Shown here piece after piece: positions 16,573-32,018 of a DNA stretch of 32,018 bases. The stretch spans positions 1-32,018 of the forward strand of contig JAFRIJ010000005.1 in the NCBI GenBank assembly GCA_017432825.1. Reading direction: 5' to 3'. The notes under the pieces are model-generated. The model made no database searches and had not been told where the DNA came from. It saw nothing but the letters and a program-made list of their open reading frames with translations. The stretch is from Bacilli bacterium. GTDB taxonomy: Bacteria; Bacillota_I; Bacilli_A; RF39; UBA660. The position numbers and the translations under genes are program-made. Numbering within the stretch: position 1 is the first letter of the stretch; every line of letters begins with the position of its first letter.

Positions 16573-17580
16573 ATGGAAGATAATAATAATCAAAAAATAA
16601 AAAATCCTGGAAACGGAAGAGAACTTTTTTATGTTGTAATAACAATTGCAATATTTATAGTAATGGCAGTTGGAGCAACATTTGCCTTCTTTACTGCAAC
16701 AGCAAATAGTGGCGATGCAGCTGTAGGAACAAGGTCAACAACATTATCACTTGAGTATATAAGCTATGGTACTGCATGGTCAAAAAATGATTTAATACCA
16801 GCAGATAGAGTAGTTTCAGAATATTCAGTAGAATATCAAAGTGACACTACATTAGGTCATAATACGTTACTTGGTAATACTTTACCTGAAACGTTAGGAG
16901 CAGTAGACAAGATGAATAATACATTATGTAAAGATGACTATGGGAACTCAGTATGTAGTATATATGAATTTCAAGTAAGAAATCCAGCAAACTCTCCTCA
17001 AACAGTAAATATAAGTTTAATAAGTGAAACAAATGAATTTGCACATTTAAAAGCAATGGCTTATGAAGTTGCAGTAGGAGATACTGTCGCATATAACAAC
17101 GTAGAAAACAAAGCAACAGCAGGAAATAATGGATATGGAGACCCTGTATTTAAAGCAAGTGCTTCAGATGAAACAGAAGGAGCAATTCAAGTAAAAGATG
17201 GATATAATACAGATTTATATGATACAACTCCAGTATATATTAATAGAGCAGGCGTTACAAAAACATTATTAACATATGAAGCTTCTCCACAAGATGAGAT
17301 AGCAAACTTAACCCCATCTATTAATATAACAGTTCCAACTGAATATGATGGAACAGCTATTTTAGCAAATGATGTAGAAATAGCTGGAGGAACAACTAAA
17401 ACATATATAATCGTTTTATATGTACAAAACTTAGAAAGCGATCAAACTGCAGGAGATGCTAACAAATCATTTACAGGAAGAGTATCAGTAAGTAATGGTA
17501 CAGGAACTGTTGGTGTTAGTGGTGCTATATCAGCAAGTGGAAGTGCTACATTACAAGGAGATCAAACATCAGGTGGCTAA
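16573..17580 (+). CDS. TasA-like surface protein with SipW-type signal anchor
   Basis: The 335-residue product has a short cytoplasmic N-terminus, a membrane segment (about 21-38), and the sequence VGATFAFFTATA, the cleavage context of SipW-dependent TasA/camelysin-type proteins. The mature part is beta-rich, starts with a TTTLSLEYIS-like strand, contains one Cys pair (LCKDDYGNSVCS), and ends in a Gly/Ser/Thr-rich tail (GTVGVSGAISASGSA). By family analogy it would be cut by the dedicated signal peptidase encoded downstream and assemble into extracellular fibres. It has its own promoter and terminator, unlike the downstream operon, suggesting it is made in larger amounts. No sortase signal is visible. 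Confidence 0.75.
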   Translation: MEDNNNQKIKNPGNGRELFYVVITIAIFIVMAVGATFAFFTATANSGDAAVGTRSTTLSLEYISYGTAWSKNDLIPADRVVSEYSVEYQSDTTLGHNTLLGNTLPETLGAVDKMNNTLCKDDYGNSVCSIYEFQVRNPANSPQTVNISLISETNEFAHLKAMAYEVAVGDTVAYNNVENKATAGNNGYGDPVFKASASDETEGAIQVKDGYNTDLYDTTPVYINRAGVTKTLLTYEASPQDEIANLTPSINITVPTEYDGTAILANDVEIAGGTTKTYIIVLYVQNLESDQTAGDANKSFTGRVSVSNGTGTVGVSGAISASGSATLQGDQTSGG

Positions 17581-17596
17581 TATAGTCACCTTTTTT
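17572..17596 (+). terminator. Terminator overlapping the first TasA-like stop
   Basis: GGTGGCTA (17572-17579) pairs with TAGTCACC (17583-17590) with one G-U pair, followed by a T run. Confidence 0.75.
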
Positions 17597-17621
17597 ATTT
17601 GCATAAAAGGGAATAAAATAA

Positions 17622-17650
17622 TTGACTTTTAAAATAAAGTTTGATATTAT
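17622..17650 (+). promoter_or_regulatory. Promoter of the second TasA-like gene
   Basis: TTGACT (17622-17627) and TATTAT (17645-17650) are 17 bp apart, with TGA forming an extended -10. Confidence 0.6.
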
Positions 17651-17686
17651 TGAAATAGATATAAATAGATAGTAGAAGGTGAAAAA

Positions 17687-18658
17687 ATGGATCAAGAAAA
17701 AAAAGAACTTAATGAAGAAGTAAATGCAACAAATGAACCCATTGAAAAAGAAAATAACAAAAGAAATGTATTTAATATAATTATAGGAATTGCAACATTA
17801 CTAATTGCTCTTTTAGGAGCAACTTTTGCCTATTTCTCTGCAACAGCGCGTAGTAAAGAAGATGATGTAAATGTAAAATCAGCCTATGTTAGTATATCTT
17901 ATGATGGTGGTACAGAAATAAAAGCAAGTCACTTGATACCTGCAACAGAAACAGTTGCAATAAATAAATTTACAAAATCTGTTACATCAATTGGAACAGA
18001 AGATGATGAAACATTAGAATTTATTGATGAAGATGAATATACAAATGATCTTGATAGAAGATGTGTAGATGCCCTAGGAAGAGAAGTTTGCTATGTATAT
18101 AGATTTAGTATAGATAGTGATGGTGAAGCAGGCGGATATACAGGTATAGCTGGCGGAATAAAAGTAAACCAAAACGATTTTGATAATTTGAGCTATATAT
18201 TATATGAAGTAACTTATCAAGAAGAAGATGGAAAAATACTAGTAGATAAATTTGGACACAAAGTAGTAGATAGTTTTCAAGTAGTAAGCCAGTTTAATAA
18301 AACAGATACTAATCCAGATAACGTAGATTACACTGATGTAAAATTTGCAACTTTTAATAAACCATTTGATAAAGCGGTTGAAGGTAGTGATTTTGTTAAT
18401 ACAATTTATCCAGTAGAGTGCTTATTCGGCTATAGTGAAACATTTGATGATGAAGCAGAAGATAGCTTAAGTAGATGTTCAGTTCGTAATGTAACTAATC
18501 AAGCAAAACATAATTTTGAATTATTAATATGGTTAGAAGAAACAGGAAGTGTACAAAATGAACAAGGATTTGAGTTCAAAGGTACAGTATTATTAGAAGT
18601 TCCAGGAGGACAAGCTGGAAGTGAATATCCTGATGGTAGAATTACTGGTAAAGATTAA
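17687..18658 (+). CDS. Second TasA-like protein with SipW-type signal anchor
   Basis: The 323-residue protein has a charged cytoplasmic stretch (1-27), a membrane segment (about 28-45), and LLGATFAYFSATA, almost the same cleavage context as the preceding gene. The mature region starts with an AYVSISYDGG strand, has a Cys pair (RRCVDALGREVCY) in the same position as in the first protein, and ends FKGTVLLEVPGG, similar to the C-terminal strand of TasA-family domains. It is acidic. It has its own promoter and terminator. A second fibre subunit, tip or anchor is likely; which one is not visible. Confidence 0.72.
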   Translation: MDQEKKELNEEVNATNEPIEKENNKRNVFNIIIGIATLLIALLGATFAYFSATARSKEDDVNVKSAYVSISYDGGTEIKASHLIPATETVAINKFTKSVTSIGTEDDETLEFIDEDEYTNDLDRRCVDALGREVCYVYRFSIDSDGEAGGYTGIAGGIKVNQNDFDNLSYILYEVTYQEEDGKILVDKFGHKVVDSFQVVSQFNKTDTNPDNVDYTDVKFATFNKPFDKAVEGSDFVNTIYPVECLFGYSETFDDEAEDSLSRCSVRNVTNQAKHNFELLIWLEETGSVQNEQGFEFKGTVLLEVPGGQAGSEYPDGRITGKD

Positions 18659-18663
18659 TAATT

Positions 18664-18690
18664 AAAAGCAATTTTATGATTGCTTTTTTT
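18664..18690 (+). terminator. Terminator after the second TasA-like gene
   Basis: AAAAGCAAT (18664-18672) and ATTGCTTTT (18679-18687) form a 9-bp stem followed by T residues. Confidence 0.8.
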
Positions 18691-18726
18691 ATTATTTTTT
18701 GGTAATATTATAATAGAGGTGGAATC

Positions 18727-19284
18727 ATGAATAAGGCTGAAGAAAAAAAGAACTTTTTTTACATAGTAATGATGATTTTAACCCTTGTAACAGTGATAAT
18801 AGGAGCAGCTTTTGCTGTCTACACTTTTTTACATAGTCAAAAAGAAGGTAGTACAAATGTTTATACCGGAACACTTTCAGTTGAATATATATCAGGTACT
18901 AAAATAAATTTGAGGAATATTTATCCTATTAACAATCCAAATTTTAATACAACTGAAAATGTATATAAAAATACATTTAGAGTAAAAAATACCGGAACAC
19001 TAGATGGGGTATTAAGAATAAACATAGATATAACTGCAAATGAATTTAGTGATAATAGTTTAAAATATAAAGTATATAGTGAATCAGGGAATGAATTAAC
19101 AACAGGATCTATAGCAAGTAAAGATAATTTTGAAATAATAAATAATGTTCTTTTAGAAAGTAATAGTACTTCGGAATACACAATATTGATATGGTTAGAT
19201 GAAACAGGCGAAAATCAGAATGTAGAAATGAGAAGAACATTACTAGGAAGTATAAGAGTAGATTTAAGTCAAAAAAGAGACTAA
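18727..19284 (+). CDS. Third, short TasA-like protein
   Basis: The 185-residue protein has a membrane segment (about 10-30) ending IGAAFAVYTFLHS, a variant of the SipW cleavage context. A compact beta domain follows: GTLSVEYISG, FRVKNTGTLDGVLRINIDI, then EYTILIWLDETGENQN and a terminal LLGSIRVDL strand. It lacks the Cys pair of the two larger paralogues. It starts the gene set with the signal peptidase (12-bp gap). A minor subunit or nucleator role, as for TapA-like partners, is plausible but inferred from size and position. Confidence 0.68.
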   Translation: MNKAEEKKNFFYIVMMILTLVTVIIGAAFAVYTFLHSQKEGSTNVYTGTLSVEYISGTKINLRNIYPINNPNFNTTENVYKNTFRVKNTGTLDGVLRINIDITANEFSDNSLKYKVYSESGNELTTGSIASKDNFEIINNVLLESNSTSEYTILIWLDETGENQNVEMRRTLLGSIRVDLSQKRD

Positions 19285-19296
19285 GAGGTGTTGAAA

Positions 19297-20535
19297 ATGG
19301 ATAAGAATAAAAAGGAACAGACATTTAAAGATTTATTTTCCAACTTAGAACAAGAAGATAATAAAGAATCATTTAATAATCTTTTTGCAGAAACAAAAAG
19401 CACTGATACATCTGAGAATAAATTATTTAATGATATATTAAAAGAAACACCATCTCTTATAGAAGAATCTGAACAAGTTAAAGAAGAAAAAAATGATATT
19501 AATCTAAACAACCTAGTAAGCGAAAATAATAAGTTAGAAGAAGAAAAACATAATGAAGTAGTACCAGAAAAAGAAGATGAATCAATTAATACAAATATTT
19601 TCTTCGAAGATAATAATACTCCTTCTGAAACAGTTGAAAAAAATGAAGAAACATCAAAAATAGAATTAGATAACATCTTTAAAGAGGAAAAGAAAGAGGA
19701 ACCTCAAATAAATCCATTCCTTGAAGAAATAAGCTCAGAAGAACCAATAATTGAGGAAGAAAAAGATCCATTAGATGAAAATCCATTCTTTGTAGATAAT
19801 GAAGAAAATTTAGAAGTAATGGAAAAACAACTAGTAGATGATAAAATAAATTTAGTAGAAAATAAAAAACATGAAGCAATAGAAAATGATAATAACAAAA
19901 TAGACACTACTAATGTAAAACATTTTAATGTAAAAATAGTTAAAAAGAAAGATCCACCAATTAAGTTCATATTAGGAGTATTATCATATGCCTTATTTAT
20001 ATGGTTATTACTAATAGGAATAGCACTATTGGTATATGTAGCAGATATAAAAATAAGAGCTGCTAAAGGTGATACAAGTAGTCCAACATTTAATGCCTAT
20101 GTGGTTTTAACAGGAAGTATGCTACCTGAAATACAAGTATACGACGTAGTGGTAACAAAGAAAATTGAAGTGAAAGATTTAAAAGAAGGAGATATAATAA
20201 CATTTGCATCATCTGATACTAGATTCTTAAATACAATTATAACTCACAGAATATTGAAAAAATATTATGATTCTGAGAAAAAACAATATACATTCCAAAC
20301 AAAAGGTGATAATAACAACGTAGCAGATAGTGCTTTAGTTCAAGAAAATAACATTTTTGGTAAAGTAATACTTAAAATACCTAAACTCGGATATTTACAA
20401 GAGTTCTTAGCGTCACGTGGAGGATGGATTGTAGTAATATTATTACCATGTTTAGCAGTAATATCTTATGATATAGTTAAACTAATGAAAAGTTTAAAAA
20501 GGAAAAAATATAAAAATATAAAAGTACAAAAGTAG
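19297..20535 (+). CDS. sipW: SipW-like (ER-type) signal peptidase with long acidic N-terminal domain
   Basis: The last ~190 residues form a type I signal peptidase of the SipW/ER class: a membrane segment (about 223-250), Ser274 in TGSMLP, and His317 in THRI in place of the bacterial lysine. A TKGDNNNVAD segment carries the acidic residue, and a second C-terminal membrane helix follows. The Ser-His spacing fits SipW. Unusually, some 220 residues of acidic, low-complexity sequence rich in Glu, Asn and Asp (repeated NPF, NNLF and DNIF-like bits) precede the first helix and would lie in the cytoplasm. ATG 19297 is chosen because AGAGGTG lies just upstream. It should process the TasA-like proteins. 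Confidence 0.88.
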   Translation: MDKNKKEQTFKDLFSNLEQEDNKESFNNLFAETKSTDTSENKLFNDILKETPSLIEESEQVKEEKNDINLNNLVSENNKLEEEKHNEVVPEKEDESINTNIFFEDNNTPSETVEKNEETSKIELDNIFKEEKKEEPQINPFLEEISSEEPIIEEEKDPLDENPFFVDNEENLEVMEKQLVDDKINLVENKKHEAIENDNNKIDTTNVKHFNVKIVKKKDPPIKFILGVLSYALFIWLLLIGIALLVYVADIKIRAAKGDTSSPTFNAYVVLTGSMLPEIQVYDVVVTKKIEVKDLKEGDIITFASSDTRFLNTIITHRILKKYYDSEKKQYTFQTKGDNNNVADSALVQENNIFGKVILKIPKLGYLQEFLASRGGWIVVILLPCLAVISYDIVKLMKSLKRKKYKNIKVQK

Positions 20536-20543
20536 ATGATAAT

Positions 20544-22349
20544 ATGAAAACGAATCTTTTCAGAGTAAAAGAAAAAAAAGAAGAAAAAATAGTAATAGAA
20601 GAGGAAAGAACAGAAAATCCTTTCCTCTTATTCCTAAAAAGACATAAAAACTTTATAATAACATCACTAATATTATTAGGAATATCTTCATTACTTATAA
20701 CTATAGGACTAGCTTTCTCTTTATTTCAACCATCAACAGAATTTGATATTAGCTTTTTAGAAGATACAAACGAAGAGGTAATATCCAATGTTGATCCCAA
20801 TTTAAATGAAGATGATTATAAAGAAGAAATATTAGGTGCAGTTGGAAGATCAGATGGAGTAGTAATACTAGTAAAAACATTTATGGATTCAAATAATGAT
20901 GTAATATACTATTTTTCTGATAAAACTGCAATTGTAGTAAGAGCTGATGGAAAAATATATAGAGTATCAGCAGATTCAAATGGAAAATATGGAATAGATG
21001 AAAATGGAAAAATAGCAGAATCTGCAAAGACAATTCAAGTAAAATCAACAACAACAACTTTAAGTGATGGAGCAATAATTACAAACTATACTGATGGTAC
21101 AGCTAAAATAGAACATAACGGAATTACAATATTTGTAAGAGATAATACTAAAATAAAACTACATAATGGTTCATCATTAAAAAATGTAGTACCAAGTGGT
21201 GTAGCACTAAATGAATCTACAGAAAAAGGTAACAATGCTACATTAAATACTTTTACAGATAAGACAAAATTAGTAACAACAACAGATAATAAAAAATATA
21301 TAGTAAATCCTAATGCTAATGCAGTAATGAATAATAATCAGGATGTAACCTATGATAGATATAATTCTTATGGAGTATTAGAAGAAAAAGTACTATCAGA
21401 TGATAACACAGTAACATATTATGAAAATGGTAGTGCGACAATAATAAATAAAAATGGTAACAAAATATATGTAAAAAAAGCAGGAGATATAATTATAAAA
21501 GATAATGCAGTATATGAAATAATAACTAATAAATATGGTTATTCTAAAAAAACATTTAATACATCTGATGGTAAAAAAGTAACATTCTTTGATAATGGAG
21601 CAGCCATAATACAATATCCAGATGGTACTAAAAAATATGTAGAAAATAGTGATGATATATTATTTGATGCAAATAAGAATATAACATCAAACCCACAAAC
21701 ATCAGGTCAAAAAGATATAAGAACAACAACAGATGGATATAAAGTAATAAACTTTGATAATGGGAAATCAGAAGTAATAAAAGACGATGGAACAAGCTTT
21801 ATAGTAGATACAAGTAAATTAATATTTGATAGTGAAGGAAATATTACCAATAAAGACAAGGATAAAGATAAAGACAAGAATGATGATAAAGACAAAGATA
21901 ATAGTGGTAATAATACAACTGAGGGTGACCCATTAGAAGGAATGTACGTTAGTGAAGCAGAAACAAAATATAATGATAAAAAAAATATTCAATATACAAA
22001 ATTCTTGATTCAAAATACCAATAGTAAACCTAAAAGATTTCGTATTGTTATAGAAGAAGTAAAAGACTATAGTAAATATAATGCAACTAGACTAGAACCA
22101 AAATATGTAAAATATCAAGCATTAATAGGTACTACATTTATAAGCAATAAAAGATTAGTTGAAGACGTATGGGACAATAATGGAACAGTAAATTATGTTA
22201 TTGATAACTATATATTATATGAAGGAACAATAAATGCAGTATCAACCATAGAAGTAACAATAACACTATTTGTAGACTATTCTGAATTAGATAATTCAAA
22301 TCAAGATAAATATTTTATTGGTACAGTTAAAACATATGTAGTTAGTTAA
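20544..22349 (+). CDS. Membrane-anchored repeat protein of the TasA-like locus
   Basis: The 601-residue protein has a cytoplasmic head (1-36), a membrane segment (about 37-62, ending GLAFSLF), and five beta repeats. Each pairs a Y/F-rich strand with a DG turn, as in VTFFDNGAAIIQYPDGTKKYV. They lie near residues 117-140, 175-198, 287-322, 342-377 and 397-432. An Asp/Lys linker (about 438-455) and a C-terminal domain resembling TasA-type beta domains (FLIQNTN..., then TITLFVDY and FIGTVKTYVV) follow. It is 8 bp after the signal peptidase gene, so part of the same operon. A cell-surface anchor or fibre-base role is inferred. I do not recognise the repeat family. Confidence 0.65.
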   Translation: MKTNLFRVKEKKEEKIVIEEERTENPFLLFLKRHKNFIITSLILLGISSLLITIGLAFSLFQPSTEFDISFLEDTNEEVISNVDPNLNEDDYKEEILGAVGRSDGVVILVKTFMDSNNDVIYYFSDKTAIVVRADGKIYRVSADSNGKYGIDENGKIAESAKTIQVKSTTTTLSDGAIITNYTDGTAKIEHNGITIFVRDNTKIKLHNGSSLKNVVPSGVALNESTEKGNNATLNTFTDKTKLVTTTDNKKYIVNPNANAVMNNNQDVTYDRYNSYGVLEEKVLSDDNTVTYYENGSATIINKNGNKIYVKKAGDIIIKDNAVYEIITNKYGYSKKTFNTSDGKKVTFFDNGAAIIQYPDGTKKYVENSDDILFDANKNITSNPQTSGQKDIRTTTDGYKVINFDNGKSEVIKDDGTSFIVDTSKLIFDSEGNITNKDKDKDKDKNDDKDKDNSGNNTTEGDPLEGMYVSEAETKYNDKKNIQYTKFLIQNTNSKPKRFRIVIEEVKDYSKYNATRLEPKYVKYQALIGTTFISNKRLVEDVWDNNGTVNYVIDNYILYEGTINAVSTIEVTITLFVDYSELDNSNQDKYFIGTVKTYVVS

Positions 22350-23234: not shown

Positions 23235-25733
23235 ATGCTAAAAGTATTTAAGAAGTTATTTGATAACGAATATAAAGAATTAGAAAGATTTAAAAAATTA
23301 GCAGATGAAATAGATAGTTTAGATGAAAAAATGTCTAAATTAAAAGATAAAGAATTAAAAGAATATACAAGTATTTTTAAAGAAAGATTATCTAAAGGAG
23401 AAACATTAGAAGATATCCTAGTAGAAGCCTTTGCAGTGTGTAGAGAAGCTTGCTATAGAACTTTAAAAATGAAACCATTCTATGTACAATTATTAGGAGG
23501 ATTAGCAATACATTATGGAAATATTGCTGAAATGAAAACAGGTGAAGGTAAAACATTAACAGAAACAATGCCAGCATATCTAAATGCCTTAGATGGTAAT
23601 GGTGTACATATAGTAACAGTAAACGAATTTCTAGCAGGAAGAGATGCTGAATGGATGGGAGAAGTATTTAAATTCCTAGGATTAACAGTAGGACTAAATC
23701 TAAGAGAATTATCTCCAGAACAAAAAAAAGAAGCTTATAACTGTGATATATTATATTCAACTAATAATGAATTAGGATTTGACTATCTAAGAGATAATAT
23801 GGTTGTAAAAAAAGAAAATAGAGTTCAAAGACCATTAAACTTCTGTATAGTTGATGAGGTAGACTCTGTATTAATAGATGAAGCTAGAACACCATTAATA
23901 ATATCAGGTGGAGTAGCTCAATCAGCAAATCTATATATGCAAGCAGATAGCTTCGTAAAAAGCTTAAAAGAAAATATAGATTATATAAAAGATGAAAAAA
24001 CACAAAGTATTAATCTAAGTGATGAAGGAACAAGAAAAGCAGAAGAAAGATTTAATCTAAAAAATCTATTTGATATAGATAATACTTCCTTAGTACATCA
24101 TATACAACAAGCATTAAGAGCTAATTACTTTATGAGTAGAGATGTAGATTATGTTGTAAAAGATGATGAGGTAGTAATAGTAGATCAGTTTACAGGAAGA
24201 TTAATGCCAGGAAGAGCATTTTCCGAAGGATTACACCAAGCAATACAAGCTAAAGAAGGAGTAACAATAGAACAAGAAACTAAAACTCTAGCAACCATTA
24301 CATTCCAAAATCTATTTAGAATGTATAAAAAATTATCTGGTATGACAGGTACTGCTAAAACAGAAGAAGAAGAATTTAGAAACATATATAACATGTATGT
24401 AATATGTATACCAACTAATAAACCAGTAATAAGAACAGATGCTGTAGACTTACTTTATCCAGGAAAAGAGGGTAAATATAGTGCTATAGTAAAAGAAATA
24501 GCCAGAAGACATAAATTAGGACAACCAATATTAGTAGGTACTATCGCTATAGAAACAAGTGAATTAATAAGTAAAATGCTAACAAAAAACAAAATACCAC
24601 ATGAAGTATTAAATGCAAAGAATAATGCAAGAGAAGCTGAAATAATAGCAAAAGCAGGACAAAAAGGAGCAGTAACTATTGCAACTAATATGGCTGGACG
24701 TGGAACAGATATCAAATTAGGCGAAGGAGTAGCAGAACTAGGAGGATTATGTGTAATAGGAACTGAAAGACATGAATCAAGAAGAATAGATAATCAGTTA
24801 AGAGGACGTTCAGGACGTCAAGGAGATCCAGGATTTACTCAATTCTATCTATCATTTGAAGATGACTTGATGGTAAGATTTGGATCAGATAGATATAGAG
24901 GAATGCTAGCTAATTTAGGATTTACAGGAGAACAAGTAGTTCAAAATAAAATGTTAGCAGGTTCTTTTGAATCAGCCCAGAAAAAAGTAGAAGGAAATAA
25001 CTTTGATATAAGAAAACAATTATTACAATATGATGACGTAATGAATAATCAAAGAGAAATAATATATTCAAAAAGAAATGAAATACTAGATAGTGACTCT
25101 ATTCATGAACAAACACTAAAACTATTACAAGATCATGTAACAGAATTAGTAAATAATCACTTAATAGAATCAAATAAATTAAACGATAATGATTATGATG
25201 AAATATTAGAAGCTGCTAATGAGAATTTATTAAAAAAACATAGAATAGCACTATCTGAAATAAAAGGAAAATCTCCAGAAGAAGTAATAGATATATTATC
25301 TAAACTAGTATTAGAAGATTATGAAGAAAAATTAAAAGATATTCCAGAAGATATAGTAAATGAATTTGAAAAAGCAATAACATTAAAAGTAATAGATTCA
25401 TATTGGATGGAACATATATCTACCATGAGTCACTTAAGAGAAGGAATAGGATTAAGAGGATACGCTAATGAAAATCCATTGCAAGCATATACTATGGAAG
25501 GATATGAACTATTTGATTTAATGCTTGCTAAAATAAATAAAGATGTATCTATATATTTATTAAAAGCAGAAATAATGCAAAACACAGAAAGAAAAGAAAT
25601 AGTAAAAAATAAAATAACTAACGATGGAAAAGATCACAAAAAAATTCAAGCCAAATCTACTAAAAAAATAGGTAGAAATGACCCATGTCCATGTGGCAGT
25701 GGTAAAAAATACAAGCAATGCTGTGGTAAATAA
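23235..25733 (+). CDS. secA: Protein translocase ATPase SecA
   Basis: SecA drives export of unfolded preproteins through SecYEG. The 832 residues show Walker A MKTGEGKT, the DEVDSVLIDEART box, the GMTGTAKTEEEE motif, ATNMAGRGTDI and GRSGRQGDPG, all in the usual order. The C-terminus is the SEC-C zinc tail with Cys818, Cys820, Cys829 and Cys830. The coding 3' end is of special interest: the last 43 nt plus 14 nt past the stop recur twice downstream, each time next to accessory genes. The present secA end is intact and its own terminator follows directly. Confidence 0.98.
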   Translation: MLKVFKKLFDNEYKELERFKKLADEIDSLDEKMSKLKDKELKEYTSIFKERLSKGETLEDILVEAFAVCREACYRTLKMKPFYVQLLGGLAIHYGNIAEMKTGEGKTLTETMPAYLNALDGNGVHIVTVNEFLAGRDAEWMGEVFKFLGLTVGLNLRELSPEQKKEAYNCDILYSTNNELGFDYLRDNMVVKKENRVQRPLNFCIVDEVDSVLIDEARTPLIISGGVAQSANLYMQADSFVKSLKENIDYIKDEKTQSINLSDEGTRKAEERFNLKNLFDIDNTSLVHHIQQALRANYFMSRDVDYVVKDDEVVIVDQFTGRLMPGRAFSEGLHQAIQAKEGVTIEQETKTLATITFQNLFRMYKKLSGMTGTAKTEEEEFRNIYNMYVICIPTNKPVIRTDAVDLLYPGKEGKYSAIVKEIARRHKLGQPILVGTIAIETSELISKMLTKNKIPHEVLNAKNNAREAEIIAKAGQKGAVTIATNMAGRGTDIKLGEGVAELGGLCVIGTERHESRRIDNQLRGRSGRQGDPGFTQFYLSFEDDLMVRFGSDRYRGMLANLGFTGEQVVQNKMLAGSFESAQKKVEGNNFDIRKQLLQYDDVMNNQREIIYSKRNEILDSDSIHEQTLKLLQDHVTELVNNHLIESNKLNDNDYDEILEAANENLLKKHRIALSEIKGKSPEEVIDILSKLVLEDYEEKLKDIPEDIVNEFEKAITLKVIDSYWMEHISTMSHLREGIGLRGYANENPLQAYTMEGYELFDLMLAKINKDVSIYLLKAEIMQNTERKEIVKNKITNDGKDHKKIQAKSTKKIGRNDPCPCGSGKKYKQCCGK

Positions 25734-25744
25734 CTCGTAAAGCC
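25688..25744 (+). repeat. secA 3' tail, copy 1 (in secA)
   Basis: This 57-bp segment covers the last zinc-tail codons, TAA stop and 14 nt beyond. It begins TCCATGTGGCAGTGGTAA, which is identical in all three copies. Copy 2 (28186-28242) differs at three third-codon positions. Copy 3 (29166-29222) has the same three changes plus TAA to TGA and one base after the stop. Confidence 0.9.
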
Positions 25745-25770
25745 AGGAAATATAAAGGTTTCCTGGCTTT
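25739..25770 (+). terminator. Terminator of secA
   Basis: AAAGCCAGGAAA (25739-25750) and TTTCCTGGCTTT (25759-25770) form a 12-bp stem followed by T residues. The terminators after copies 2 and 3 differ, so this one belongs to a different downstream arm. Confidence 0.9.
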
Positions 25771-25812
25771 TTATTTTTCTAAAAAGTTGTAATTTTTCTC
25801 CAAAAACAGCCT

Positions 25813-25850
25813 CTACATACGTTTCACATACGTATGTAAAACGTATGTAG
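25813..25850. repeat. 38-bp palindrome built from ACATACGT half-sites
   Basis: CTACATACGTTT (25813-25824) mirrors AAACGTATGTAG (25839-25850) around a central perfect ACATACGTATGT (25826-25837), with one mismatched pair. The same ACATACGTTTT motif occurs as a direct pair before tail copies 2 and 3. It is probably a protein-binding site shared by the system. Confidence 0.7.
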
Positions 25851-25946
25851 CCATTATTTTGAGACTAATAAAGTCTTTATTTATAAGGTTTTACGAAGAA
25901 AATGATCACTGCCCCTATAGTTCAAGACAAAGACTATAAAAGTTTA

Positions 25947-25955
25947 TGATATAAT
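25947..25955 (+). promoter_or_regulatory. Extended -10 promoter of the NERD gene
   Basis: TG, one base, then TATAAT (25950-25955), about 25 bp before the start at 25980. The -35 region is not consensus. Confidence 0.45.
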
Positions 25956-25979
25956 ATTAATGAGAAGAAGGTGCATTTT

Positions 25980-26732
25980 ATGTCAAATTTCACTAACGAA
26001 TTTTTAAAGTATTATCTAACAAATCCATTAATAATATCAATATTAGTTTTAGGACTAATATCAGCAATTTTTTATAAACAAATAGTTGGATGGTTTGGAG
26101 AACATTGGACTAAAAAAGCCTTAAGAAAATTACCTAAAGCTAAATATAAAATAATAAATGATTTGTTTTTATCAGTTAATGGATTAACTCATCAAATAGA
26201 TCATGTAATAGTTTCTCCGTATGGAATATTTTCTATAGAAACAAAACAATATAATGGTTACATTACAGGAAGTAAATATGATAAAAATTGGGTAAGACAT
26301 GCAGGAAAAAGTAAATATTATTACACAAATCCTATTAGACAAAATTATGGGCATTGCAAAGCATTGTCTGAATTATTAAATATAGATGAATCAAAAATAT
26401 ATAATATAGTTTGTATCCCAAGCAATGCAAAATTAAAAATAGAACACGATGGAGAACTTGTAAGATATGATACCGTTGCTGATAAAATATTTTCTTATAA
26501 TGAGAAAAAAATTGATAATGTTAATGAATTATATAACCAATTAATTAAAAGTAATGTAAAGGACAGAAAAATAAAAAAAGAACATATTGAAAATATCAAA
26601 AATAATATTGATAAAAATGATACTAACAAATGTCCTAAATGTGGTGGAATGCTAGTTGAACGAGAGAGTAAGTATGGTAAATTTATTGGCTGTTCCAATT
26701 ATCCCAAATGTAAATATACAAAAAATAACTAA
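25980..26732 (+). CDS. Membrane-anchored NERD-domain nuclease with topoisomerase-type zinc finger
   Basis: The 250-residue protein has an N-terminal membrane segment (about 15-35) and a NERD domain (about 45-160). The PD-(D/E)xK-type residues are Asp74 in QIDHVIVS and Glu87-x-Lys89 in SIETK. A C-terminal C4 zinc finger of topoisomerase I type follows (CPKCGG, then GCSNYPKCKYT). NERD proteins are predicted nucleases common on mobile and defence loci. ATG 25980 is chosen because AAGAAGGTG precedes it. The HEPN-type gene starts 28 bp later, so the two are probably one operon. Ile codon use mixes ATT and ATA more evenly than in the backbone genes. Confidence 0.85.
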   Translation: MSNFTNEFLKYYLTNPLIISILVLGLISAIFYKQIVGWFGEHWTKKALRKLPKAKYKIINDLFLSVNGLTHQIDHVIVSPYGIFSIETKQYNGYITGSKYDKNWVRHAGKSKYYYTNPIRQNYGHCKALSELLNIDESKIYNIVCIPSNAKLKIEHDGELVRYDTVADKIFSYNEKKIDNVNELYNQLIKSNVKDRKIKKEHIENIKNNIDKNDTNKCPKCGGMLVERESKYGKFIGCSNYPKCKYTKNN

Positions 26733-26760
26733 ATATAATAATTGAATGGAGGACGGCAAA

Positions 26761-28050
26761 ATGGATTTTAATACTTTTAGAGATTTTTCTAAATTATCAG
26801 TTAAAATTAGACTAGGAAGAAAACAGTATAATGCTATATTTATAGAAAAAAATAATTATCTAATGTTAGAAGTTAATGTAATTAATGATATTGAATTTTT
26901 TGAAAAGGCTAAGGATTTTTACAAAATCGTAAATGGACAAATATTATTTAATAATATTGATGTGTCATTGCTAGATTGCCAGTTATATAATAAAGCAGTA
27001 ACACAAGGTGGAAAAAATTTAAATGACATTAAAGAGGCATATTTAATATATAGAGTAGATAGAATTTTACTTGGTAAAAGATTGTTGCAAAAGGAAATGA
27101 ATAACATATTAAAATGTGAAGTAGTTTATAATAATATTGAATGCTTTTCAAATTCTTATCCATATAAAACAAATTACAATACATTAGAGTATAGTGGGAA
27201 TCTTGATGTTTTTAATATTTATACCTCCAGAGTAAGCATATCAATTAATTACGGAAGTATCACTGAATATAAAGATACTTCATTAACTATGAAGAGAAAT
27301 ACAAATGTTGTATTAAATTTTCAAAATAAAAAAAGTATTAGCAAGTCACTAGATGAAATATATAAATTTAGAAATTTTTTAGTATTATTATTAAAAAAAC
27401 ACATTGTTGTTCAAAAACAATATGTTTATTATGGAGATAATAAATATCAATTATTTGATTGTAATGATATTATACTAAAAGTTAATTCAAATGAACTAGA
27501 AGAACATTTATCGCATCGTTGCATAAAAATAGAAAAATTAAATAATATAAATGAAATATATAAATTATTTGAAAAAAACTATAATAAATTATTTTCATTG
27601 ATCGAACTTTATTATAATGTCACGCAAATAAGTGTACCTAATTTAACAAGATTTATTAATGCTGTTACAATGATTGAGAATATGTCTAGAAATTATGATT
27701 ACAATTCTGCTTTTAAATTAACTAAAAAAAATAATAACAGGATAAAAAATGATGCGGATTATAAATACATGGTTTATTCATTAATTAAAAAAGTTAATGA
27801 TGTTTATAACTTGTCTGATCAACAAATAGAGCAAATATCAGATAATATTAAGAATGCGAGAGTATACTATATTCATTATAAGAAAAAAAGTACAGCAAAA
27901 AAATTGTCATATGAAGAGCAATTTAGATTTTCTTATTTTATGCAAGATATTGTTTTGCTTAATATTTATAAATTATTTAAAATGGATATTAAAAATATAG
28001 AATATTTATCATTTAATGATTATTACTATGCTGTAAATGATTTGTTATAA
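26761..28050 (+). CDS. ApeA-like HEPN-domain protein, putative RNase
   Basis: The 429-residue protein has a beta-rich N-terminal half containing an IDVSLLDCQLYN-type segment like those of ApeA-family N-terminal domains. Its C-terminal half is helical, with Arg367-x4-His372 (RVYYIH) fitting the HEPN RNase motif. HEPN proteins of this kind act in abortive phage defence by cutting tRNA or other RNA. I chose ATG 26761 because GGAGG lies 8-9 bp upstream; ATG 26746 would include that ribosome site. Pairing with a NERD nuclease inside a secA-tail unit suggests a two-gene defence cassette. Family assignment is by motif reading only. Confidence 0.6.
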   Translation: MDFNTFRDFSKLSVKIRLGRKQYNAIFIEKNNYLMLEVNVINDIEFFEKAKDFYKIVNGQILFNNIDVSLLDCQLYNKAVTQGGKNLNDIKEAYLIYRVDRILLGKRLLQKEMNNILKCEVVYNNIECFSNSYPYKTNYNTLEYSGNLDVFNIYTSRVSISINYGSITEYKDTSLTMKRNTNVVLNFQNKKSISKSLDEIYKFRNFLVLLLKKHIVVQKQYVYYGDNKYQLFDCNDIILKVNSNELEEHLSHRCIKIEKLNNINEIYKLFEKNYNKLFSLIELYYNVTQISVPNLTRFINAVTMIENMSRNYDYNSAFKLTKKNNNRIKNDADYKYMVYSLIKKVNDVYNLSDQQIEQISDNIKNARVYYIHYKKKSTAKKLSYEEQFRFSYFMQDIVLLNIYKLFKMDIKNIEYLSFNDYYYAVNDLL

Positions 28051-28185
28051 AATAATTTTCACATACGTTTTTACATACGTTTTGGTAGAGTTCTCGGACG
28101 CTCTCAAACGCTTTCAAAAGCCAATTTGTGAGGTTTTATAAGGGTTTTAAAGAGTTTTATAGTCTCAGAAGCTTGAAATATCGCA

Positions 28186-28242
28186 TCCATGTGGCAGTGG
28201 TAAGAAATATAAGCAATGTTGTGGTAAATAACTCGTAAAGCC
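28186..28242 (+). repeat. secA 3' tail, copy 2
   Basis: 54 of 57 bases match the secA end. The differences (AAA/AAG, TAC/TAT, TGC/TGT) are all synonymous in the secA frame and TAA is kept. There is no start codon upstream in frame, so it is not itself a gene. Confidence 0.92.
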
Positions 28243-28272
28243 CCATGAATAAAGGGAAAACACGAGTTTTTC
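28230..28272 (+). terminator. Terminator after secA tail copy 2
   Basis: AACTCGT (28230-28236) pairs with ACGAGTT (28262-28268), with an inner CCC/GGG pairing and a T run after. The same structure follows copy 3. Confidence 0.7.
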
Positions 28273-28416
28273 TTTTCTTAAAAATTATTCAAAGAAAGGC
28301 TTTAGATCAGTTTTAGATCATCATATTTTTAAAAGGTAAAATAAGGGAATATAAAATTCGCAAAATAGTAATATTACGCTGATTAAAGTTACTGATAAAA
28401 ACAACTAATTATGTAG

Positions 28417-28422
28417 TATAAT
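28417..28422 (+). promoter_or_regulatory. -10 box of the cassette 2 gene
   Basis: TATAAT lies 20 bp before the start at 28442; no good -35 is visible. Confidence 0.35.
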
Positions 28423-28441
28423 AGAATTATAGGAGATGATT

Positions 28442-29032
28442 ATGAAAAAGAAAATAGTAATAATTGTAATTATAATGTTACTTATAATACTAATACCAAT
28501 ACCTACTCAATTGAAAAATGGTAATAAAGAATATAAAGCAATTTTGTATAAATACACCAAAATTCATCAACCAAGCGATACATCATCAACTGGTTATGAA
28601 GATGGCTGGGAACTAAAGATTTTAGGAATCCATGTTGGTGGAGAAATAAATACTTATGTCAGTACTGAAACATTAAAACCAAATTTATTTGATAGAAGTG
28701 AAATAATAAAAGTAGCCATTGATAATTATTCACAATACAAAAATAATTTTGAATATGCAGATAAAAATACTATTGATAAGATTTATAATTTGTTTAAAGA
28801 TTTAAAAACAAATGTTGCAAGTAAGAGTGATGAGCCAGAAAATCCTGAAGAATTATACAAAGTAACTTTTTTCAATAGTGAAAATATGCTAATAGAAAGT
28901 GACAATGATATTTTTAAAGCAATCATATATGTATATAAAAGAGATAATAAATATTACGTAGAAGAACCAAAAAATGGAATTTATGAAGTAACAGAAGAAA
29001 CTTTCAACAATATCAAAAACTATGCTAAATAA
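28442..29032 (+). CDS. Membrane-anchored hypothetical protein, sole cargo of cassette 2
   Basis: The 196-residue protein begins with a Lys-rich start and a single hydrophobic helix (about 4-22), with no lipobox cysteine, so it is a membrane-anchored extracellular protein. The body contains YKAILYKYTKIHQ and a TGYEDGWELKILGIHVGGE segment, a pattern I recall from short uncharacterised Bacillota membrane proteins. The C-terminal half has a beta-rich VTFFNSENMLIES and a YYVEEPKNGIYEV segment. AGGAGATG precedes ATG 28442, which I prefer to the in-frame ATG 6 nt upstream. Function is unknown. Confidence 0.7.
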   Translation: MKKKIVIIVIIMLLIILIPIPTQLKNGNKEYKAILYKYTKIHQPSDTSSTGYEDGWELKILGIHVGGEINTYVSTETLKPNLFDRSEIIKVAIDNYSQYKNNFEYADKNTIDKIYNLFKDLKTNVASKSDEPENPEELYKVTFFNSENMLIESDNDIFKAIIYVYKRDNKYYVEEPKNGIYEVTEETFNNIKNYAK

Positions 29033-29165
29033 TGCTTTTTTACATACGTTTTTACATACGTTTTGGTAGCGTTCTCGGACGTTCTCAAACGTTCTCAAAA
29101 GTTCATTTATGAGGTTTTATAAGGTTTTATGAAGTTTCATAGCCTCAAAACTTCGAAAAACCGCA

Positions 29166-29222
29166 TCCATGTGGCAGTGGTAAGAAATATAAGCAATGTT
29201 GTGGTAAATGACTCGTAAAGTC
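29166..29222 (+). repeat. secA 3' tail, copy 3
   Basis: 52 of 57 bases match the secA end. It has the same three synonymous changes as copy 2, the stop TAA replaced by TGA (still a stop under the standard bacterial code), and one change after the stop. Confidence 0.9.
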
Positions 29223-29252
29223 CCATAAATAAAGGGAAAACACGAGTTTTTC
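29210..29252 (+). terminator. Terminator after secA tail copy 3
   Basis: ACTCGT (29211-29216) pairs with ACGAGT (29242-29247), followed by T residues, as after copy 2. Confidence 0.7.
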
Positions 29253-29365
29253 TTTTTCTAAAAATTACTCAAAAAAAGGCTTTAGATCAGTTTTAGATCA
29301 TCATATTTTTAAAAGGTAAAATAAGGGAAGATATAATTCATAAAATAGTAATGTTATGATACATT

Positions 29366-29396
29366 AGACCAACAAAAAAAGCTGGTCTTTTATTTT
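29366..29396 (+). terminator. Terminator next to the tetR 3' end
   Basis: AGACCA (29366-29371) pairs with TGGTCT (29383-29388), with TTTTATTTT after on the plus strand. It may stop read-through into the antisense side of tetR and may weakly end tetR itself. Confidence 0.55.
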
Positions 29397-29899
29397 GCTA
29401 AAAGATCAACCATCTTATTTGCTAATTCTTTTGGACTTTCTTTGCTATCATTTATTAACCAGAAATAATAAACATTAAATATTCCCCCTGCTATAAAATA
29501 TGATTTATAGCTTTCGTATTCTTTTTGATGCAAGTTTATTAGTTTATTATCAAACTCATTTTTTAATAAATTAAATAGATTTGCTTTATATATTAAATAG
29601 GCTTCTGTTTTATATTTTTCTAAGTGAGTAAATAACTTAATGAAATAATCTTTGGTAGAGTCATTTTTATAACTAATATCTGATTCTTTTAAAAAGTTAT
29701 CTGTAGTATTGGTAATCCACTTTTTTATTATATCTTCTTTTGAATCAAAATTTCTATAAAATGATAATCTACTTACACCAGCTTTTTTAGATAATTCAGT
29801 AATAGCAATATCATTAAATTTTTTTTTAGACATCAAAGAAAACAATGCATCAGTTAAACTCTCTTTAACTATATTATTTGCAATTTCATTTTTATTCAT
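29390..29899 (-). CDS. TetR/AcrR-family regulator
   Basis: The 169-residue protein has an N-terminal TetR DNA-binding domain (ALFSLMSKKKFNDIAITELSKKAGVSRLSFYRNFDSKEDII, about residues 18-58) and a helical ligand domain with a TetR_C-type pattern. I chose ATG 29899; a start at 29920 would overlap the GGAGGTG ribosome site, although the spacing from there to 29899 is long (about 12 nt). It is divergent from the two hydrolase genes. TGTAACA/TGTTACA pairs lie in both leaders, so it probably represses itself and the hydrolase operon. The inducer is unknown. Confidence 0.85.
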   Translation of the reverse strand: MNKNEIANNIVKESLTDALFSLMSKKKFNDIAITELSKKAGVSRLSFYRNFDSKEDIIKKWITNTTDNFLKESDISYKNDSTKDYFIKLFTHLEKYKTEAYLIYKANLFNLLKNEFDNKLINLHQKEYESYKSYFIAGGIFNVYYFWLINDSKESPKELANKMVDLLAK

Positions 29900-29901
29900 G
29901 A

Positions 29902-29928
29902 TGTAACAAAACACCTCCATTTGTTACA
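29902..29928. promoter_or_regulatory. Putative TetR operator in the tetR leader
   Basis: TGTAACA (29902-29908) and TGTTACA (29922-29928) form an inverted pair with a 13-bp spacer around the tetR ribosome site. The same half-sites recur at 29984-29999. Confidence 0.5.
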
Positions 29929-29983
29929 ATTCCTGATCAGAATATTGTTGGAAATAAATTTCTATAATATAATTATAACAAGG

Positions 29984-29999
29984 TGTAACAAATGTTACA
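29984..29999. promoter_or_regulatory. Putative TetR operator before the hydrolase operon
   Basis: TGTAACA-AA-TGTTACA is a perfect 16-bp inverted repeat located between the TATAAT-like box (29963-29968) and the hydrolase start, a good position for repression. Confidence 0.65.
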
Positions 30000-30017
30000 A
30001 GTATGAGGAGTTGTATT

Positions 30018-31037
30018 ATGAAAAAAGTTTTAAAAGTAATTGGAATTATATTTGGAATATTATTATTAATTGTAATTGGTGGTTATTTTATTTTAATGAC
30101 ACATACTCAAATAATTGTTGGATTTATTCAAAAAGCATCTAGTGAGACTGTAAATACTAAAAATTCTTATGAACCATTAAGAGAACCATATACAGGGGTT
30201 AAGAAAAATGGACAATATGTTATTGCTGAAATCAATTATTCAAAAGAGTATCCTAATAGTTTTTTAGATATTACATATACAAATGAAAATACTGAAGAAG
30301 ATAGAACTACATTATTTTACTTTCATGGTGGGGGATTCTTTGGAGGAAGTAAAAATGATGGAGATCCATTAGCAGAAAGTGATGTTACTGCTTTACTTGA
30401 TGATATTTGTGCTGAGGGATTTAATATAGTAAATGTTGACTATGCTCTTGTTCCTGATTACCATTTTCCAACACCACTTATTCAAGCCAATCTTGCATTT
30501 CAATATATGATAGAACATTCCGAAGAATATCATATTAATATGGATAAAGTGATTATAATGGGTTCATCTGCTGGAGCAATAATGACAAGTCAAATTGGAA
30601 GTATTATTACTAATAGTGAATATGCAAAATTATTGAATATTACTCCTGTATTAAAAAGAGAACAAGTAAAAGCGTTAGTAATTGATGATGCACCACTTGT
30701 TTATAATAAATTTAGTTTAGCAACTAAGATTTTAGTCGGTAATTATATAAAAGGTTCTATTTATATTAGTAAAGAAGAATTAAAGAAATATAATAATATT
30801 TTATCAATCGATTCAAATTATATTCCATCAGTTTTACTTGGTAGTGAATATTATGTTGATATGAGAGATATGGATGCTAAATTAAAAGAGATGAAAGTAG
30901 AACATGAACTTGTAGATCCACTTGCAGAAAGAGGAAAAGAAATGCAACATTGTTTTGTTGCCAATGAAAGAGCAGATGAAATATCAAAAGATGCCTTCGA
31001 TAGAATGATTAAATTTATAAAAGAAAAAACAAATTAA
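30018..31037 (+). CDS. Membrane-anchored alpha/beta hydrolase (HSL/esterase type)
   Basis: The 339-residue protein has an N-terminal membrane helix (about 5-26). The alpha/beta-hydrolase fold-3 pattern then follows: FHGGGFFGG oxyanion-hole motif, DYALVPDYHFP, and MGSSAGA with the nucleophile serine. A late His in MQHCF is a candidate triad member. The catalytic domain would lie outside the cell. ATG 30018 is chosen because GAGGAG precedes it. The next gene, a second hydrolase with a nearly identical N-terminal helix (MKKVLKxIGIIF), follows 16 bp later. Substrate is unknown; ester or xenobiotic hydrolysis is plausible given TetR control. Confidence 0.88.
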   Translation: MKKVLKVIGIIFGILLLIVIGGYFILMTHTQIIVGFIQKASSETVNTKNSYEPLREPYTGVKKNGQYVIAEINYSKEYPNSFLDITYTNENTEEDRTTLFYFHGGGFFGGSKNDGDPLAESDVTALLDDICAEGFNIVNVDYALVPDYHFPTPLIQANLAFQYMIEHSEEYHINMDKVIIMGSSAGAIMTSQIGSIITNSEYAKLLNITPVLKREQVKALVIDDAPLVYNKFSLATKILVGNYIKGSIYISKEELKKYNNILSIDSNYIPSVLLGSEYYVDMRDMDAKLKEMKVEHELVDPLAERGKEMQHCFVANERADEISKDAFDRMIKFIKEKTN

Positions 31038-31053
31038 AAGGTGATAAGTAAGT

Positions 31054-32004
31054 ATGAAAAAAGTGTTAAAAATAATTGGAATCATATTTTTAGTATTAAT
31101 AATAATTCTTGGTATATTAGCAATAAAAGGATATATTGAAAGTCAGCAACCAGTATATGAAGATGATTATTATAAAGACTTTAAATCAGATTCAGAACTT
31201 GAAATGAAGTATTCTAAACTTGGAGATTATGAAGTTGCTTATGAAGAGCATGAGTCAGATAATAAATCTATAAAAAAGATTAGAATTTGGTATCCAAAAG
31301 AATTAGAAAATAACGATACTGAATATCCAATGATTGTAGTAGTTAATGCTAGTGGTGTTCCTGCTTTTAGATATAAGCCATTCTTTAAAAGACTTGCATC
31401 ATGGGGATTTATAGTAGTTGGAAATGAAGATGGACAAGCTGGTAAAGGAGAAACAACTTCTATTACATTAGAATATATGTTAAACATACCAAATGATAGT
31501 AAGCTTTATAATAAAATAGATAAAGAGAATATTGGAATAATAGGTTACTCTCAAGGTGGAGCAGGAGCTTTAAGAGCTGTTACTGAATTTGAAAATGGAA
31601 AATATTATAAAGCTATCTTTACTGGAAGTGCTGCATATCCATTTTTAGCAAATAATATGGGATGGAGTTATGATACATCTAAAATAAAAATCCCATACTT
31701 TATGACAGCAGGTACAGGCAAGTCAGATGATGCTGGAAATGATTCAAGTAAAGAATTTGGTGGAGTTGCTCCTTTATCATCATTAATAGATAACTACGAT
31801 AAAATATCAGATGATGTATTTAAAATTCGTGCAAGATCAGTAGGAACAGAACATGAAAATATGCTTGAGAAAACTGATTCTTACATGACAGCATGGATGT
31901 TATATCAATTAAAAGATGATGAAGAAGCAAGTAAGGTATTTATTGGAGAAGATGCCGAACTTTTAAATAATAAGAATTGGCAAGATGTAGAGAAAAACAA
32001 ATAA
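31054..32004 (+). CDS. Second membrane-anchored alpha/beta hydrolase (chlorophyllase/PET-hydrolase-like)
   Basis: The 316-residue protein has a membrane helix (about 4-25), a RIWYPKEL strand, a VVVNASGV oxyanion region, and GYSQGGAGALRA with the nucleophile serine. The segment PYFMTAGTGKSDD may hold the acid and GTEHENM the histidine. The pattern is closer to chlorophyllase- or dienelactone-type hydrolases than to its neighbour, so the pair is not a simple duplication despite near-identical N-terminal anchors. An AAGGTGATAAG ribosome site precedes the ATG. Both genes are probably one TetR-regulated operon. Confidence 0.85.
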   Translation: MKKVLKIIGIIFLVLIIILGILAIKGYIESQQPVYEDDYYKDFKSDSELEMKYSKLGDYEVAYEEHESDNKSIKKIRIWYPKELENNDTEYPMIVVVNASGVPAFRYKPFFKRLASWGFIVVGNEDGQAGKGETTSITLEYMLNIPNDSKLYNKIDKENIGIIGYSQGGAGALRAVTEFENGKYYKAIFTGSAAYPFLANNMGWSYDTSKIKIPYFMTAGTGKSDDAGNDSSKEFGGVAPLSSLIDNYDKISDDVFKIRARSVGTEHENMLEKTDSYMTAWMLYQLKDDEEASKVFIGEDAELLNNKNWQDVEKNK

Positions 32005-32018
32005 TCGGAAGATTAAGA

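Follow-up and report, generated by a model that had tools for sequence, protein, structure and literature searches.

Silent-variant copies of the secA 3' end as probable attachment sites of serially inserted elements in a family of uncultured gut Bacilli

The window, that is, the whole stretch of DNA analysed here, is one entire contig of 32018 bp from a MAG (1.16 Mb in 17 contigs, 93.5% complete). The likely target gene, secA, is encoded on the plus strand (23235..25733, an ORF of 832 aa); its last 13 codons and stop codon form a tail that we interpret as an attachment site, and 149 secA genes with the same tail were compared. Three 57-nt copies of this sequence are present, all on the plus strand: copy 1 (25688-25744) overlaps the 3' end of secA, and copies 2 (28186-28242) and 3 (29166-29222) repeat the secA tail. 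Delimited as 13 codons and a stop, the working tail of copy 1 occupies 25692..25733 (ending in TAA), the orphan tail of copy 2 28190..28231 (TAA) and that of copy 3 29170..29211 (TGA), and the three form the left ends of cassette 1, cassette 2 and the next unit, respectively. The 5' edge of the tail is marked by CCATGTGG (25689..25696, plus strand), the putative crossover region according to the orphan boundary, linkage profiles and prophage comparisons, which delimit a region rather than a single base. Elsewhere in the window, a large serine recombinase with Resolvase, Recombinase and zinc ribbon domains is encoded near the contig start (2403-4079), probably as part of another mobile element, and a run of secreted-protein-like genes with a signal-peptidase-like gene (16573-22349) resembles, by eye, a TasA/SipW-type cluster.

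The initial annotation stated that copies 2 and 3 differ from secA only silently, in the stop codon or past it, and re-reading of the three copies agrees. The only in-frame differences are AAA to AAG, TAC to TAT and TGC to TGT, all silent; copy 3 additionally carries TGA instead of TAA and one changed base beyond the stop (GCC to GTC). Because just 19 of the 117 single-base changes possible in the tail (16%) are silent, three silent changes out of three are unlikely by chance (probability about 0.004). The match to secA starts at CCATGTGG, and 5' of it the copies lack any likeness to secA, while copies 2 and 3 are ~84-92% identical to each other over more than 100 nt on each side. The search suggested in the initial annotation for secA genes with the AAG/TAT/TGT version was successful: in L244 and L203, the working secA carries the same 39 nt as copy 2. 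Copy 3 is followed by 37 nt identical to the stretch after the working secA of L228.

Cassette 1 (25692..28189, plus strand; 2498 bp from tail to tail) begins with the working tail, followed after the secA stop by a cassette-borne, terminator-like hairpin with a T-run, read in the sequence (25734..25780, plus strand), and by ACATACGT repeats (25815..25850), which are candidate integrase arm sites; similar repeats lie at the right ends near 28057-28080 and 29038-29063. Its cargo, on the plus strand, consists of a gene for a protein with a NERD nuclease-related domain and a zinc ribbon (25971..26732; PF08378, E 2.6e-28; PF01396, E 1.8e-16) and a gene for an ApeA-like HEPN protein (26746..28050; PF18862, E 1.1e-13; PF18739, E 7.7e-6). 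The ApeA family is known from anti-phage defence. Cassette 2 (28190..29169, plus strand; 980 bp from tail to tail) encodes on the same strand a DUF5301 protein with a hydrophobic N-terminus (28436..29032; PF17225, E 5.5e-12), and related cargo was found in a cassette of genome G005. Copy 3 is followed by a cassette-type left end and thus probably starts a further cassette (29170..32018, plus strand), the contig stopping before its far border; the genes after it encode a TetR-type regulator, an esterase-type protein and one more product, the types being taken from weak NCBIfam matches. The window cassettes hold no relaxase gene and are not phages.

When 145 genomes from the same family were searched with a degenerate pattern, the tail was detected in 120, many of them with several copies, up to 9 per genome; a second draw of 146 family genomes gave the same picture. 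Within a genome, an array may comprise as many as 8-9 copies, most of which share a contig and a strand. In a sample of 100 genomes from the class, those outside the family gave at most one match each, the pattern fitting their tails less well. Tail copies were also seen in MAG contigs labelled Saccharibacteria, Treponema and archaeon (L214, L224 and L233), which are probably mis-binned contigs of this family. In a codon-blind search allowing up to 10 mismatches, reversed patterns gave no matches. At empty sites, prfB lies 129-255 nt after secA; in G005, the distance is 8454 nt, with two tail copies in between. The cassettes have a median length of ~2.1 kb, 34 of 81 complete ones hold a single ORF of at least 70 aa, and 169 of 173 ORFs of at least 90 aa are oriented as secA is. 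Nine of 115 cargo proteins match a GNAT acetyltransferase model, and others match AAA/Abi-type ATPase, helix-turn-helix and tRNA-synthetase models. The tRNA-synthetase-type cargo genes, found at L034:6632-8167 and in other cassettes, include matches to a class II core with an anticodon domain and Pfam matches of the class I Lys/Cys type.

Altogether, 279 distinct tail copies were collected, 149 on secA and 130 orphan, a set biased towards intact peptides in that many loci were chosen by a codon-aware pattern; no frameshifted copy or net indel was found. The initial annotation proposed comparing synonymous with non-synonymous differences across related genomes, and in the 130 orphans silent differences dominate: relative to the modal tail, 442 codon differences are silent and 83 change the amino acid. 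The first 112 orphans show 369 silent and 69 changing differences, where a neutral simulation gives 89 and 378, and the 41 orphans that share a stretch with a secA-attached tail show 151 and 32 against a neutral 35 and 156. Most of the changing differences in orphans are also common in secA (K/R, Q/N, C/H), and, position by position, orphan tails hardly differ from secA tails in codon usage.

These patterns bear on the possibility that the sequence is kept just for recombinase binding, the peptide being irrelevant. Such a role would fit with the copies being attachment sites and with the very constant CC[A/T]TGTGG at the 5' edge of the tail. However, variation falls on third codon positions and obeys the amino-acid code (serine as AGY or TCN, R as CGC, Q/N and C/H as in secA), and codons 6-8 differ in DNA among the 112 orphans without ever changing the residue. 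Since a binding site would not obey the amino-acid code, we regard this explanation as very improbable. The intact frame could be expected if orphan tails were translated as separate small genes, yet in none of the 112 orphans is the tail preceded by an open stretch of 60 or more codons, and the sequences upstream vary from cassette to cassette; we reject this scenario as extremely unlikely.

The constraint on orphan tails is looser than that on secA tails: residues outside the secA repertoire occur in 22 of 130 orphans versus 5 of 149 secA tails (Fisher p = 1.6e-4). Given this relaxation, orphan tails are either under selection from time to time or recent, and not under continuous selection.

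Prophages were found at the same site. In a 40-kb viral contig, secA is followed by an integrase and phage genes, with tail copies at both ends; the repeated gene end thus flanks this temperate phage as attL and attR. Four more IMG/VR contigs encode close relatives of its integrase (58-94% identity), and three of the four hold a tail copy. The same prophage left end occurs in two of these contigs, within secA in L375 and within an orphan tail in L371; the tail and stop (42/42) and the next 300 nt (300/300) are identical, and the upstream flanks are unrelated, which indicates that the tail travels with the element. In L244, a related prophage resides in the secA of another host, with 41 of 42 positions of the tail and stop in common. 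The right arm of the prophage resembles the sequence upstream of 33 of the 130 orphans and of none of the 149 secA tails.

A second type of tyrosine integrase (Phage_integrase and SAM-like domains with a weak arm domain) is encoded in 34 of the 145 genomes, often ~160-260 bp past the secA tail on the same strand (PF00589). By this profile, 13 of 81 complete cassettes carry an integrase, 11 of them directly following secA, and 68 do not. Larger elements in G034 and G094 each encode two integrases and a MobV-type relaxase (120.6 bits against a cut-off of 100 in G034, with a homolog in G094). The right ends of cassettes fall into classes, one of which mixes integrase-bearing and integrase-less cassettes; together with the prophage-like arm upstream of 33 orphans, this sharing suggests that integrase-less cassettes may be mobilised in trans. 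Despite the 93.5% completeness of the MAG, neither integrase type was found in the genome of the window, which has just two PF00589 genes of XerC/D size. An integrase beside a window-like left end (G039:C14) was dropped as the cognate enzyme because its neighbour is, by eye, an IS91-type transposase and because most of its relatives in other genomes are XerC/D-like.

Two peculiarities of the integrase genes are worth recording. In one subclade (L099, L177, L153, L043, L184, L255, L278 and others), a run of ~7-9 A between the N-terminal and catalytic domains marks a point where the gene is split and the frame changes for the second half. The break is at the same place in several genomes and resembles a site of programmed frameshifting or transcriptional slippage in a tyrosine recombinase gene. 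Elements at secA in L169, L178, L179, L168 and L183 have two integrase genes ~3-5 kb apart, and those in L169 and L178 also contain a small excisionase-like gene (by eye) and a Mob_Pre/MobV-type gene.

Sequence comparison among secA genes points to exchange of the tails. In pairs with at least 80% codon identity, the likeness of the tails is 0.54 versus 0.46-0.50 in distant pairs, and over the 8 codons preceding the crossover the likeness climbs from 0.46 to 0.79. Thus, the tail hardly tracks secA relatedness, whereas the codons just before the crossover do. Linkage analysis showed that codons 9-13 and the stop go with the downstream flank, codons 2-4 are tied to both flanks, and the codon immediately before the tail goes mainly with the upstream flank, placing the crossover within the 5' part of the tail and no finer. 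A terminator-like hairpin was found after 62 of the 149 secA tails (2 in shuffles) and after 81 of the 130 orphan tails (6 in shuffles).

Ordinary homologous recombination, through segmental duplication or gene conversion of the secA end, could account for the ~84-92% likeness of the flanks of copies 2 and 3, in that one cassette end may have been copied. As the source of the tail copies in general, it is hardly credible and was rejected: identity starts sharply at CCATGTGG in all copies while upstream flanks are unrelated, the precise boundary recurs across species, the copies bear different silent variants, and integrases, a relaxase gene and prophages are present at the site.

A closer competitor assumes the same integration but no recurrent selection through reuse, the orphans being recently displaced secA ends that drift freely. 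The greater frequency of unusual residues in orphans (22/130 versus 5/149) fits with such drift, and orphan conservation could partly reflect recency. Orphans nevertheless serve as insertion targets, and 33 of the 130 orphan tails match a working secA tail from elsewhere at all 39 nt; because orphan tails recur together with their flanks on working secA in other genomes, tail sequences return to use. We consider free drift of recently displaced ends unlikely, while noting that it differs from our preferred explanation only in degree.

That explanation, which we consider highly probable, is that the copies are attachment sites and that serial site-specific insertion re-tails secA, with intact tails being kept. 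Phages, mobilizable islands and small cassettes would insert at CC[A/T]TGTGG near the secA end, the attachment site of each element bringing its own last 13 codons (the zinc tail), a stop and often a terminator. Integration would sever the resident tail and put the incoming one in its place, and the displaced tail would then sit at the far end of the element as a target for the next insertion. Repeated insertion would build an array of cassettes parted by orphan tails, and excision would presumably hand the next orphan tail back to secA. Because any tail may become the end of a gene that is probably essential in these hosts, non-functional tails would be removed and the copies would differ mainly silently. 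The sequences directly show the repeat structure, the coding constraint, the linkage between a tail and its downstream flank, the donation of a tail by one prophage to two targets and, in related genomes, tyrosine integrases adjoining the site. The initial annotation had suggested that each copy once served, or repeatedly serves, as the functional secA end and is selected for its peptide; the excess of silent differences (a neutral ratio being about 1:4), the intact frames and the working secA genes with the AAG/TAT/TGT version largely support this interpretation, with two refinements. First, the copies appear to be attachment sites of site-specific elements, swapped by integration and, putatively, excision; second, selection on orphan tails is intermittent, or the copies are recent.

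Several aspects of this arrangement are already known from other systems. Integration at the 3' ends of housekeeping genes with the gene kept whole, tandem accretion and decayed elements have been reviewed (PMC5704250). The IME/CIME accretion described there shares with the secA arrays the tyrosine integrase, which some elements at the site encode, the gene-preserving direct repeats, the tandem elements and the integrase-less decayed members, and the integrases accompanied by a MobV-family relaxase gene in G034 and G094 add to this likeness. In contrast to these systems, an array at secA can hold 8-9 copies, with units that lack an integrase and mostly measure 1-3 kb, and the site is also used by a prophage; secA has 0 mentions in that review. 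The e14 prophage replaces the 3' end of E. coli icd, the versions differing by 12 SNPs of which 10 are silent, and its excision restores the displaced icd end (PMC4759930). The same silent-difference signature is seen in the secA tails, but e14 is a single prophage without an array, whereas here many elements are spread across a whole host family.

Integron arrays likewise consist of rows of small cassettes with one or a few genes in one orientation, as was found here, with common recombination sites and mixed cargo, e.g., acetyltransferases and defence genes. However, the site at secA is coding DNA without the fold of an attC hairpin, and a terminator-like hairpin often precedes the cargo. 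No attC-like hairpin was found, the bottom strand of the window sites folding about like shuffles (z 0.19, 0.34 and -1.65), and the integron-integrase model TIGR02249 yielded 57.7 and 57.3 bits against a cut-off of 265. Membership among integrons was thus rejected on integrase type and site structure. A possible, if tentative, broader view is that secA is the platform of an integron-like system, in which recombinase-less cassettes would be captured and shuffled in trans by phage and island integrases sharing attachment arms, each capture re-tailing an essential gene.

The C-terminal tail of SecA contains a small metal-binding domain, and its part in modulating SecA has been studied (PMC6620043). 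No report of integration at secA was found in the open literature, most subscription journals lying outside this coverage. Gene-end restoration and tandem accretion are already known; what looks new is the use of secA as the target and the large arrays without integrase. In annotation, short copies of a gene end that differ silently can be used as a signature of serial integration. The secA tails provide a natural, replicated record of a gene end swapped repeatedly, with mostly functional versions surviving, and, across this family of uncultured gut bacteria, the secA end is a hot spot for cargo that includes defence genes, acetyltransferases and tRNA-synthetase-type genes.
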